A DNA stretch of 64,000 nucleotides from Methylobacterium bullatum (GTDB lineage: Bacteria > Pseudomonadota > Alphaproteobacteria > Rhizobiales > Beijerinckiaceae): assembly GCA_902712845.1 (NCBI GenBank), contig LR743504.1, positions 1,710,001-1,774,000 on the forward strand. The letters run 5' to 3'. Numbering within the stretch: the first letter of the stretch is position 1; each line of letters starts with the position of its first letter. The notes beneath the pieces were generated by a model that searched no databases, was not told the DNA's origin, and saw only the letters and a program-made list of their open reading frames with translations. Below are positions 44,494-53,300 of the stretch, one piece after another. The translations under genes were made by a program, and so were the position numbers.

Positions 44494-45564
44494 ATGCCTG
44501 CCATGCCCGCATCCGTAGAAACGGCTTCGGCCCTCATCGCCATCGTCTGCTCCTCCGCGCCCGTTCATCTCGTCCTGAACCTGCGAAGCCTCGATTGCGC
44601 CATCCGGCTGGTCACCGGGGCGAAGGCCGCCGCGAGCGACGAGCTGTTTCACCCGGCCGATCTCGTCATCGTGATGCACGATCCCCATAGCGGGATCGAC
44701 GGTCCGACCGTGATCCGGGACCTGCGCGGTCACGATGGACATGCCCGCACGGCGATCCTGTTACTCGGGGCCTCTTCCGCTCTGCGGCGGTCGGGGGTCG
44801 AGGCCGGTGCCACCGACGTGATGACCGGCCCCGTCGATCCCCTCGACCTGCAGATCCGGGTCTGCAACCTGCTCGAACTCGCCCTGGCGCGTCAGGTCCT
44901 CCACCGGCAATCGGTCGCGATGTGCCGCGACGTGGACCGGGCGGGCGCCGAAGCGGCCTCGCGGGAGCGGGAGATCATCCGCCGCCTGATGCTGGCGGCC
45001 GAGTTCCGCGACGATCAGGCGGGAGATCACCTTACGCGGGTCGCCGGCTGCGCCATCGCCATCGCCGAAGGGCTCGGCCTGTCGGAGGGGGACGCGAACG
45101 ACATTGCCCTGGCCTCGACGATGCACGACATCGGCAAGATCAGCATCCCCGACAGCATCCTGATGAAGCCGGGGCCCCTCAGCGACAGTGAACGCGAGGA
45201 GATGAAGCACCACGCGATCCGCGGCTACCGCATGCTCTACGACAGCCCCTCGCATCTGCTGCAACTCGCCTCCGACATCGCCCTGACCCATCACGAGCGC
45301 TGGGATGGCGGCGGCTATCCGCAGGGATTGAGCACGACGCAGATCCCGCTCGCGGGCCGCATCGTCGCCGTCGCCGACGTGTTCGATGCCCTGATTTCGG
45401 AGCGGGTCTACAAGAAGGCCTGGACCCCAGAGGCGGCGCGCCGGCATCTCGAAGAGCATGCCGGCACCCATTTCGACCCGGATTGCGTGGCCGCCTTCGT
45501 GGCCCGCTGGGACGACATCCTCGGGCTGGTGGAGAGCAACCCGCCGGAATCCGCCACCGTCTGA
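44494..45564 (+). CDS. HD-GYP phosphodiesterase with degenerate receiver
   Basis: A 356-residue protein. The N-terminal domain (about 10-125) looks like a two-component receiver, but the acidic pair is CSS, the phospho-Asp position reads VIVMHDPHSGID, and the switch Lys is replaced (MTGPVDP), so it may not be phosphorylated. A coiled linker precedes the C-terminal HD-GYP domain (about 165-345) with H179, HDIGK (211-215), HH (239-240), HHERWDGGGYPQG (266-278); the ligands for a c-di-GMP phosphodiesterase look intact. ATG 44494 is favoured over ATG 44470 or TTG 44425 (GGGAG upstream). Confidence 0.87.
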   Translation: MPAMPASVETASALIAIVCSSAPVHLVLNLRSLDCAIRLVTGAKAAASDELFHPADLVIVMHDPHSGIDGPTVIRDLRGHDGHARTAILLLGASSALRRSGVEAGATDVMTGPVDPLDLQIRVCNLLELALARQVLHRQSVAMCRDVDRAGAEAASREREIIRRLMLAAEFRDDQAGDHLTRVAGCAIAIAEGLGLSEGDANDIALASTMHDIGKISIPDSILMKPGPLSDSEREEMKHHAIRGYRMLYDSPSHLLQLASDIALTHHERWDGGGYPQGLSTTQIPLAGRIVAVADVFDALISERVYKKAWTPEAARRHLEEHAGTHFDPDCVAAFVARWDDILGLVESNPPESATV

Positions 45565-51654: not shown

Positions 51655-51679
51655 GGAACGGCGTCATGTTCGATACGTT
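51655..51679 (+). promoter_or_regulatory. EcfG-type general stress promoter
   Basis: GGAAC (51655-51659), 16-base spacer, CGTT (51676-51679): full match to the EcfG consensus GGAAC-N16/17-CGTT. About 56 bases before the ATG (51735) of the HRXXN kinase gene. Confidence 0.7.
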
Positions 51680-51734
51680 GACCGGCGCCGATGGAGATCA
51701 TCGGTTGTCGCGTATCGGGTAGAGTGGGAGCAAC

Positions 51735-52775
51735 ATGGCCGCGGAGACAGAGTCGACCGAGGCGAGCGTCGGAGAGGCCGTGCCGTGTGACGAGTTTCGT
51801 CGCTTCGCGGATTTCGTGCCCCTGATGATGTGGCGTTCCGACATCGAAGGCGCGGCGGTCCATCACAACGAGTGCTGGCTCGATTTCACCGGCCGGAGCC
51901 GCGAAGACGAACTCGGCCATGGCTGGCGGCGTGGGCTGCACCCGGACGATTTCGACCGTCATGCCGCCCTGGTCGAGGATGCCTTCGCCTCGCGCAGTCC
52001 CTACTCCATCGAGTTTCGCCTGCGCCGTCACGACGGTGCCTACCGCTGGCTCCTGAACAACGCCCGTCCCCTCACCGAGAACGGCACGTTTCAGGGCTAT
52101 CTGGGCTCGTGCTTCGACATCACCGATCGGAAGCGGGCCGAGGAGCATGCCGAGCATGCCCTCGTGGAGAAGGAGGCCCTTCTCGCCGAGGTCTACCACC
52201 GGGTGCGCAACAACCTGCAGGTGATGGTGAGCCTGATCGGTCTCTACGGCCGCGCCGCGCCGCCGCCGTGCCGCGGAAGCTTCGAGGCGCTCGGCCAGCG
52301 CGTGCGTGCCATCGCCCTCGTTCAGCAGCATCTGCACGAGGCGCCGCACATCGCCTCCATCGACCTGCGCGATTACTTACACCGGCTCGCCTCCGGCCTC
52401 GGCCAGTTGCGGCGGGCGGGCCGTATCAGCGTGGCAGTGGGCGGCCGCGGCACGAGCTTGGTGGAACCGCGCACCGCCAACGCCCTCGGCATGATCGTGG
52501 CCGAAGTCGTGGCCGAATGCCTCGACGCCACCGCCGATTCCGTCTCCTGCACGATCGCGATCACCATCGACGCCCAGGCCGGTGCGCCGGTCCGTCTCAC
52601 CATCGTATCGGGCGGCGATCAGACGGGGGACCATGCCACGGACGTGCCCAATCTCGGTCCTCGGCTGGTGGCGGCCTATGCCGCTCAGGCCGAAATCGCC
52701 GTTCGGGGCACCGGCACGCAGGCCGATCCGATGGAACTGCAGCTGCCCGAAGCCCTGGTACATCCGTCGGAGTAG
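51735..52775 (+). CDS. PAS HWE/HRXXN-type sensor kinase with degenerate ATPase domain
   Basis: A 346-residue soluble sensor kinase of the HWE/HisKA_2 superfamily, HRXXN subgroup. The PAS domain (about 22-135) is followed by the dimerisation/phosphoacceptor region EVYHRVRNNLQVMVSLI (His 155). The C-terminal ATPase domain is degraded: the N-box NE...N reads IVAEVVAECLDATA (no Asn), and the expected DxGxGxP loop reads SGGDQTGDHA. Hence kinase activity is doubtful; a phosphatase or regulator role is possible. The EcfG promoter upstream ties it to the general stress response that such kinases often feed. Confidence 0.83.
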   Translation: MAAETESTEASVGEAVPCDEFRRFADFVPLMMWRSDIEGAAVHHNECWLDFTGRSREDELGHGWRRGLHPDDFDRHAALVEDAFASRSPYSIEFRLRRHDGAYRWLLNNARPLTENGTFQGYLGSCFDITDRKRAEEHAEHALVEKEALLAEVYHRVRNNLQVMVSLIGLYGRAAPPPCRGSFEALGQRVRAIALVQQHLHEAPHIASIDLRDYLHRLASGLGQLRRAGRISVAVGGRGTSLVEPRTANALGMIVAEVVAECLDATADSVSCTIAITIDAQAGAPVRLTIVSGGDQTGDHATDVPNLGPRLVAAYAAQAEIAVRGTGTQADPMELQLPEALVHPSE

Positions 52776-52877: not shown

Positions 52878-53300
52878 ATGCTTCCACCCATCGCAACGAT
52901 CATCGACAATTTCGAAATCCTCGACGACGGGCCGGACCAGCTCGAGTATCTGATGGAACTCGGCCGTGCCCTGCCGCCCTTTCCGGACGAATTGCTCACT
53001 GAGCAGAATCGGGTCCATGGCTGCGAAAGCCAGGTCTGGGTCGATTCGCAGGTCGATCATTCGCAGTCGCCGCCGCGCCTGCATCTGCGCGGCACGAGCG
53101 ATTCCTTCATCACCAAGGGATTGATCGCCCTGGTGATGGCCCTGCACGACGGGAGGACGCCGACCGAGATCGCGGATGTCGACGTCTTCCAAGTCTTCAA
53201 GCAGATCGGACTCGGCGCCCACCTGACGTCGAAGCGTTCCAACGGGGTCAGGGCCATGGCCGAGCGCATCCATCGGGATGCGGCCCGGCTTGCGGCCTGA
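52878..53300 (+). CDS. sufE: SufE family sulfur acceptor
   Basis: A 140-residue SufE protein that accepts persulfide sulfur from a SufS-type cysteine desulfurase. Active-site Cys in RVHGCESQVWV (about 51), with the family blocks DNFEILDDGPDQLEYLMELGR and TSDSFITKGLIALVMALHDGRTPTEIADVD. It lies outside any suf operon here; the partner SufS is not in the window except the encapsulin-bound desulfurase 25 kb away, and a link is only a guess. Confidence 0.93.
   Translation: MLPPIATIIDNFEILDDGPDQLEYLMELGRALPPFPDELLTEQNRVHGCESQVWVDSQVDHSQSPPRLHLRGTSDSFITKGLIALVMALHDGRTPTEIADVDVFQVFKQIGLGAHLTSKRSNGVRAMAERIHRDAARLAA

Follow-up and report, generated by a model that had tools for sequence, protein, structure and literature searches.

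A gene of Methylobacterium bullatum encodes a protein with a PAS input domain, an invariant phosphoacceptor helix and an ATPase domain that has lost its ATP-binding motifs, lies behind an EcfG-type promoter, and probably acts in the general stress response (GSR) as a relay or brake rather than as a kinase. The protein of M. bullatum LMG 24788 is 98% identical to it, and no earlier description was found in the open-access literature searched. The gene and its surroundings were analyzed in a window of 64,000 nucleotides (the whole stretch of DNA under study), in which position 51655 is the first base of the promoter motif GGAAC and position 52775 the final base of the stop codon. The features, all on the + strand, are as follows:

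51655..51679, +, EcfG-type promoter found in 81/81 genomes: -35 element GGAAC (51655-51659), 16-nt spacer, -10 element CGTT (51676-51679)
51680..51688, +, conserved block GACCGGCGC immediately following the -10 element
51735..52775, +, subject gene, a PAS-HisKA_2 protein of 346 aa with a degenerate ATPase domain (from the sequence and its orthologues)
51789..52145, +, PAS domain, residues 19-137 (PAS_3, 56.6 bits)
52146..52442, +, DHp domain, residues 138-236, the most conserved part
52197..52214, +, phosphoacceptor HRVRNN, residues 155-160 (codon of His155, 52197-52199)
52443..52772, +, degenerate CA (Bergerat-fold) domain, residues 237-346, with a short lid region of low model confidence
52500..52532, +, former N-box helix AEVVAECLDAT, with Asn replaced by Glu261
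52608..52622, +, former G1 site SGGDQ, with the Asp lost and the loop variable in the alignment of 81
52653..52667, +, G2-like remnant LGPRL (Gly308-Leu311 invariant, Leu307 in 78/81)
52878..53300, +, sufE, whose adjacency to the subject gene is conserved

The host genome (G000, genus Methylobacterium; 4.84 Mb in three contigs) carries a 2-hydroxyacid dehydrogenase gene upstream of the subject gene and sufE downstream. Among 80 orthologous loci, five of which have little upstream room and three little downstream room, the dehydrogenase adjoins the gene in 19, and sufE lies at most 700 nt downstream in 75, despite the changing upstream neighbor. sufE has no role in the mechanism argued here, and its adjacency is without obvious reason. 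The genome also encodes PhyR and NepR, adjacent to each other (locus L182). The subject gene lies at 1,761,735 and phyR at 2,683,545, both on contig 1, and the gene is therefore not phyR-linked. EcfG-like motifs cluster on both strands of the phyR-nepR locus itself (G000:C1:2677000-2692000), where seven of the matches listed lie at 2,682,473-2,685,599 of contig 1.

The sequence GGAAC-N16/17-[CG]GTT occurs upstream of the subject gene in all 81 genomes of the alignment used for both motifs and promoter (the window sequence plus loci L044-L123), and it agrees with the M. extorquens EcfG consensus GAAC-N16,17-C/GGTT given in PMC4814048, as the original prediction had claimed. GGAACG and ACGTTG are invariant across the 81 promoters, the spacer edges and position -1 carry about 1.0-1.7 bits, and the spacer middle and upstream flank 0.0-0.9 bits. 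The distance from the end of the -10 element to the most upstream following in-frame ATG is 45-69 nt in 80 genomes and 22 nt in one. Chance was rejected as the source of the promoter, since none of 158 different scrambles of the motif was found in more than 6/81 genomes (median 0). Taken alone, the loose consensus would be unconvincing, as it is only mildly enriched genome-wide (116 matches vs 77 for the reversed control). From this EcfG-type footprint we infer EcfG-dependent expression. Among the other HRXXN kinases of the genome, the motif was not found in the 300 nt upstream or the first 240 nt of the frame of 11 (300 nt of upstream sequence were available for 11/17, 69 nt for one and none for five). 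The block GACCGGCGC consists of nine columns of 1.3-2.0 bits in 81 genomes, followed by a drop to 0.1 bits; possible roles are those of an operator or of a signal in the initial transcript of the subject gene. The genome contains five copies of CGTTGACCGGCG vs three of the reversed control, with no clear excess.

The PAS block (residues 21-140) was modeled by AlphaFold with a pLDDT of 84-96. The phosphoacceptor HRVRNN was predicted to be intact and is invariant in 81/81 sequences. The accompanying assignment to the HWE/HisKA_2 type held for HisKA_2 (55.7 bits in Pfam, above the curated cut-off of 22.3), whereas an HWE kinase identity was rejected, HWE_HK scoring 18.1 bits against a curated cut-off of 22.8. 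None of the 81 orthologues has a membrane segment (no 19-residue window above 1.8 on the Kyte-Doolittle scale). With the NCBIfam PhyK profile NF051872, the protein scores 56.6 bits vs an equivalog cut-off of 750, a profile that discriminates little, the own-genome kinases L001-L004 scoring 103-144 bits and the intact kinase L192 of another genus 91, so that none of the six reaches 750. The LovK equivalog NF052306 (blue-light LOV kinase) gives 40.6 bits vs a cut-off of 450, and the LOV-like L001 and L003 are also below it (251 and 259).

The motifs of ATP binding have been lost from the CA domain, as was predicted for both the N-box Asn residues and the G1 loop. The first N-box Asn is Ala in 80 of the 81 aligned sequences and Ser in one, and the second, which we take to be the metal-binding residue, is Glu261 in all of them; relatives read xELxTNAxKH where the subject protein has AEVVAECLD. 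The Asp/Gly loop of G1 has become SGG followed by a variable, partly gapped stretch in the 81 sequences. Thirty of 30 partly overlapping further loci also have the invariant His motif and the N-box Glu. Two combined searches of the subject's own genome gave 18 HRXXN proteins, and the 17 others all keep the N-box Asn. HATPase_c was absent from the subject protein at E ≤ 1 and from both orthologues checked, L059 and L113, at E ≤ 0.1, and was detected in five intact relatives (L001-L004 and L192; Pfam in all cases).

In two AlphaFold models (mean pLDDT 80.0 and 81.9), the alpha/beta sandwich is preserved, and the lid region of the CA domain has a pLDDT below 50. Because fold matches of the whole protein were mostly PAS/LOV domains, the DHp and CA domains were modeled separately. 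This DHp+CA model matched the HisKA_2 kinases 5epv_B (Z 11.6, rmsd 4.5 over 179) and 4r39_C (Z 11.4, rmsd 4.4 over 162), with the ATP-binding domains of other kinases, PrrB (1ysr_C, 11.4) and HK853, tied within 1 Z. The top Foldseek match was 4r39_B (E 9.6e-11), and ChpT was not among the 50 fold matches listed. On these models, the CA domain has lost its motifs, not its fold. The protein should work without ATP, and ATP use via other residues appears unlikely, since the N-box and G1 are both lost.

An orthologue was found in 111/111 genomes of the genus at an identity of at least 59%, three of the 111 rows (G030, G049 and G050) having one TGA within the matched stretch. Invariant columns number 65/99 in the DHp domain, 28/119 in the PAS domain, 30/110 in the CA domain and 0/18 at the N-terminus. 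The dN/dS values against the five nearest orthologues rank likewise (DHp 0.014-0.038, PAS 0.038-0.080, CA 0.060-0.177), and the order is unchanged, at high dS, against the distant L050, L059 and L121 (DHp 0.04-0.18, PAS 0.17-0.57, CA 0.23-0.58), eight rows having been computed in all. Only the order was used, because with the Biopython NG86 method dN comes out slightly above zero even for identical proteins. By these measures, the CA domain is more variable, yet under purifying selection. A decaying pseudogene was rejected given the presence in 111/111 genomes, the invariant motifs and the purifying selection, and the sequences indicate that the protein is selected and genus-wide.

In a search of the order, 24/397 genomes matched at E ≤ 1e-30, eight of them within the genus. 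Five of the 16 matches outside it were read (L192, L193, L194, L197 and L199), and all keep the N-box Asn; the remaining 11, judged by their matched range, cover mostly the PAS stretch. Twelve listed genomes belong to other genera of the same family, of which 11 gave no match and G325 matched in the PAS stretch only. The best relative outside the genus is L192 (genome G383), with 48.6% identity over residues 20-226. In the simplest history, ATP binding would have been lost once, ahead of the radiation of the genus.

PhyT (formerly PhyP) of Sphingomonas melonis Fr1 is described in PMC5898713 as an HRxxN protein with a degenerate ATPase domain that passes phosphate from SdrG to PhyR via its His and binds and sequesters PhyR; a phosphatase activity was once proposed, and none on PhyR was detected in vitro according to that account. 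PhyT expression depends on EcfG, as stated in PMC6599016. The subject protein is likewise an HRxxN protein with a degenerate ATPase domain, and has an EcfG-type promoter. However, PhyT is described as anchored in the membrane, with a putative periplasmic domain, and its gene as lying at the phyR locus, whereas the subject protein has a PAS domain, no membrane segment and a distant locus; by both position and topology, it is no orthologue of PhyT. In Caulobacter crescentus, PhyK and LovK are reported to be phosphotransferases that accept phosphate from MrrA even with G1 or G2 mutated; SigT positively affects the expression of both, and LovK with LovR forms a SigT-controlled phosphate sink (PMC5964349). 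The subject protein resembles these two as an HRXXN protein of a kind for which the ATP-binding residues are dispensable there (PMC5964349). Their CA motifs, however, are still present and had to be mutated, while those of the subject protein are lost in 81/81. The subject protein also has neither the putative periplasmic domain described for PhyK nor the LOV domain described for LovK.

L192 shares the PAS and HisKA_2 domains and a similar length with the subject protein but has an intact N-box and G1 (MNAARHAF, DDGVGLP). EL346 (4r39/4r3a) and Brucella LOV-HK (5epv), which are described as active light-regulated kinases, are among the best structural and sequence matches of its DHp and CA domains, and differ from the subject protein, which is without the N-box Asn and G1. 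ChpT and Spo0B serve other pathways and have to our knowledge no sensory PAS domain. PMC5898713 names both as histidine phosphotransferases that presumably arose from kinases whose ATPase domain had degenerated.

An HRXXN protein was found within about 5 kb at 18/20 phyR loci of other alphaproteobacterial families, with an HRXXN profile built partly from those same loci, and at 0/21 phyR loci of the genus within about 6 kb (21 of 110 being covered). The 20 loci come from 29 returned for 31 matching genomes (190 searched, the others giving no PhyR match at 1e-25), exclude G635, G645 and all ranked below G541, and include some windows cut by contig ends. Four hits at phyR loci were kept out of the tree by hand, L254_8467 and L265_2493 as second HRXXN proteins and L266_480 and L256_2 as proteins other than HRXXN kinases. 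The tree holds 18 phyR-locus rows, of which 13 share the HisKA_2 side with the subject DHp domain and five are placed among the HWE kinases. The HisKA_2 side also holds L001-L004 and L192, so this grouping is not specific to PhyR partners. All 13 HisKA_2 proteins from phyR loci have at least two hydrophobic segments, and the subject protein and its orthologues have none. Two of the 13, L256 and L263, have lost the N-box Asn, which means that PhyT-like proteins are present in the sample. A clade of the subject protein with L256 (AU p 0.33) was not rejected, nor was one with both L256 and L263 (AU p 0.20). The tree joins the subject protein to the intact L192 with an unstarred support of 93/93, a join flagged as a long-branch one, and places its DHp domain far from every own-genome paralogue, on a long stem branch. 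Descent from PhyT-type proteins and independent loss are both compatible with the tree.

The extent of ATPase decay varies among the phyR-locus proteins, G1 being altered, by eye, in L254 and L270 as well as in the two that lost the Asn; this gradation hints at repeated loss. An aromatic-Ala-x-Gln motif in the last helix is shared by the subject protein and 8/13 of the phyR-locus HisKA_2 proteins, and is seen in 0/4 own-genome HisKA_2 kinases and not in L192, a post hoc count by eye that was not used as proof.

For a protein that has given up its ATP motifs but keeps a frozen phosphoacceptor helix, the best explanation is that it either exchanges phosphoryl groups with a response regulator or docks one. 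By analogy with PhyT, PhyK and LovK, we give a slightly better than even chance to the protein being an ATP-independent histidine phosphotransferase and PhyR-docking node of the GSR. In the scheme that we infer for its partners (PhyR included), for the direction of phosphate flow and for what the PAS domain senses, stress kinases would phosphorylate a receiver, either that of an SdrG-type single-domain regulator or a hybrid kinase's own. One single-domain regulator of M. extorquens, Mext_0407, has been noted in the GSR (PMC13344952). His155 would take the phosphoryl group and exchange it with PhyR, and the DHp domain would hold unphosphorylated PhyR while the PAS domain is in its resting state. 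If the protein is made under EcfG, its level would rise with the response and provide feedback, as relay gain or as a brake, depending on the PAS state. The protein would take the place of a membrane-bound HRXXN protein linked to phyR, which most phyR loci covered from other alphaproteobacteria have and the 21 genus loci lack. The further idea that in Methylobacterium the phosphotransferase node moved off the membrane and away from phyR into an EcfG-made PAS protein is put forward tentatively, as a possibility of less than even chance.

Candidate partners were sought beside the gene with a profile of five own-genome receivers, scanned against ORFs of at least 80 aa at E ≤ 1e-3 in the 80 loci and the window. 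The scan found no receiver between positions 45000 and 59000 of the window. Receivers were found in 21/80 loci: as long ORFs directly upstream in 11 (L071, L082, L084, L085, L087, L088, L090, L092, L095, L107 and L112), as CheY-like proteins in five, and as weaker or farther matches in five (L108, L099, L064, L083 and L080), with none in the other 59. Hence, no general partner gene lies beside the subject gene. Examples of both kinds are:

L095:1-2763, same strand as the subject gene, receiver-bearing ORF upstream
L112:1-2838, same strand as the subject gene, receiver-bearing ORF upstream
L085:3-521, same strand as the subject gene, receiver-bearing ORF upstream
L063:1984-2367, CheY-like regulator
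L066:2115-2498, CheY-like regulator

The 11 upstream ORFs start at or near the locus edge on the same strand; ten are 921-946 aa long and another is truncated at 173 aa. Their end was measured in L095, L112 and L085 and lies 152-165 nt before the subject ATG. That of L095, the only one scanned whole with Pfam, is a PAS/GAF-HisKA-HATPase_c-receiver hybrid kinase. Such a hybrid kinase is a donor of the type that needs a histidine phosphotransferase, which supports a relay, and it is a possible phosphate donor in this set of loci. A gene behind a hybrid kinase fits a histidine phosphotransferase and leaves a target other than PhyR possible. The CheY-like single-domain regulators (DDSPSIRQMI type) lie 418-656 nt upstream in L063, L066, L067, L076 and L120.

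The original prediction saw in the protein a feedback element of the general stress cascade, acting as a phosphatase, decoy or scaffold rather than as a kinase. A GSR feedback element that is not a kinase is likely from the promoter and the loss of the ATP motifs. The phosphatase is less likely among the proposed options, as the characterized ATP-free precedents in the GSR (PhyT, PhyK and LovK) are phosphotransferases. A phosphatase acting on PhyR or on a single-domain regulator through the HRXXN helix without ATP would be consistent with the conserved DHp domain and lost CA motifs, and kinases can retain phosphatase function in the DHp domain. The nearest characterized analogue, PhyT/PhyP, is nevertheless reported to have shown no such activity in vitro (PMC5898713), and we regard this function as quite improbable. 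The decoy or sink is a live rival to the relay, albeit one that we rate as unlikely: after induction, the protein would drain phosphate in the manner of LovK/LovR or sequester PhyR, with no net positive relay. The EcfG-type promoter in 81/81 genomes would suit such negative feedback, as would the SigT control described for the LovK/LovR sink (PMC5964349) and the sequestration of PhyR described for PhyT (PMC5898713). However, no LovR-like single regulator is conserved beside the subject gene, and PhyT, as described, combines sequestration and relay in one protein, so that the two readings are not mutually exclusive.

The protein could also act in a heterodimer or complex, in which the CA domain of another kinase phosphorylates His155 or is held back. 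Seventeen own-genome HRXXN kinases with an intact N-box could supply that domain, and the fold matches include the RetS-GacS co-complex 7n0e, but the DHp domain is distant from all own-genome paralogues and no HRXXN kinase gene is known to adjoin the subject gene, the upstream hybrid kinase of L095 being of the HisKA type; we consider such a complex very unlikely. The least probable case is an EcfG-made protein whose receiver partner is not PhyR, for instance the upstream hybrid kinase. HRXXN phosphate flow in Caulobacter is reported to reach non-GSR outputs (PMC5964349), 29 single-domain regulators are attributed to M. extorquens (PMC13344952), and a receiver-bearing ORF is directly upstream in the 11 loci above. 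Against this, the upstream neighbor varies by locus, leaving no general partner of that kind, and the precedents of the same anatomy feed PhyR as far as they are described.

The favored reading, a phosphotransferase and docking node, would bear on how many kinases meet at PhyR. M. extorquens has the largest set of HRXXN kinases of any alphaproteobacterium known to the authors of PMC4814048, and according to them all potentially act on PhyR. An HRXXN protein that is present across the genus, has no ATP motifs and lies behind an EcfG-type promoter is an obvious candidate for the point at which these kinases converge upon PhyR. If the node did leave the membrane and phyR in the way suggested above, sensing would take place on the relay protein as well as on the kinases, and EcfG would adjust the very relay that feeds it, a sensory, inducible phosphotransferase found throughout the genus. 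The protein would also be a third case, beside PhyT and PhyK/LovK, suggesting that HRXXN proteins of the GSR often work ATP-free.

Two further PhyR-sigma-like matches exceed the family cut-off of 28.5 bits, and one of them (L183, G000:C1:3617678-3620369) adjoins two HWE kinases, making it a possible paralogous PhyR module. The LOV-like HisKA_2 kinases L001 and L003 are each adjoined by a PhyR-receiver-like regulator (41% and 37% identity), which indicates that receivers other than PhyR exist.
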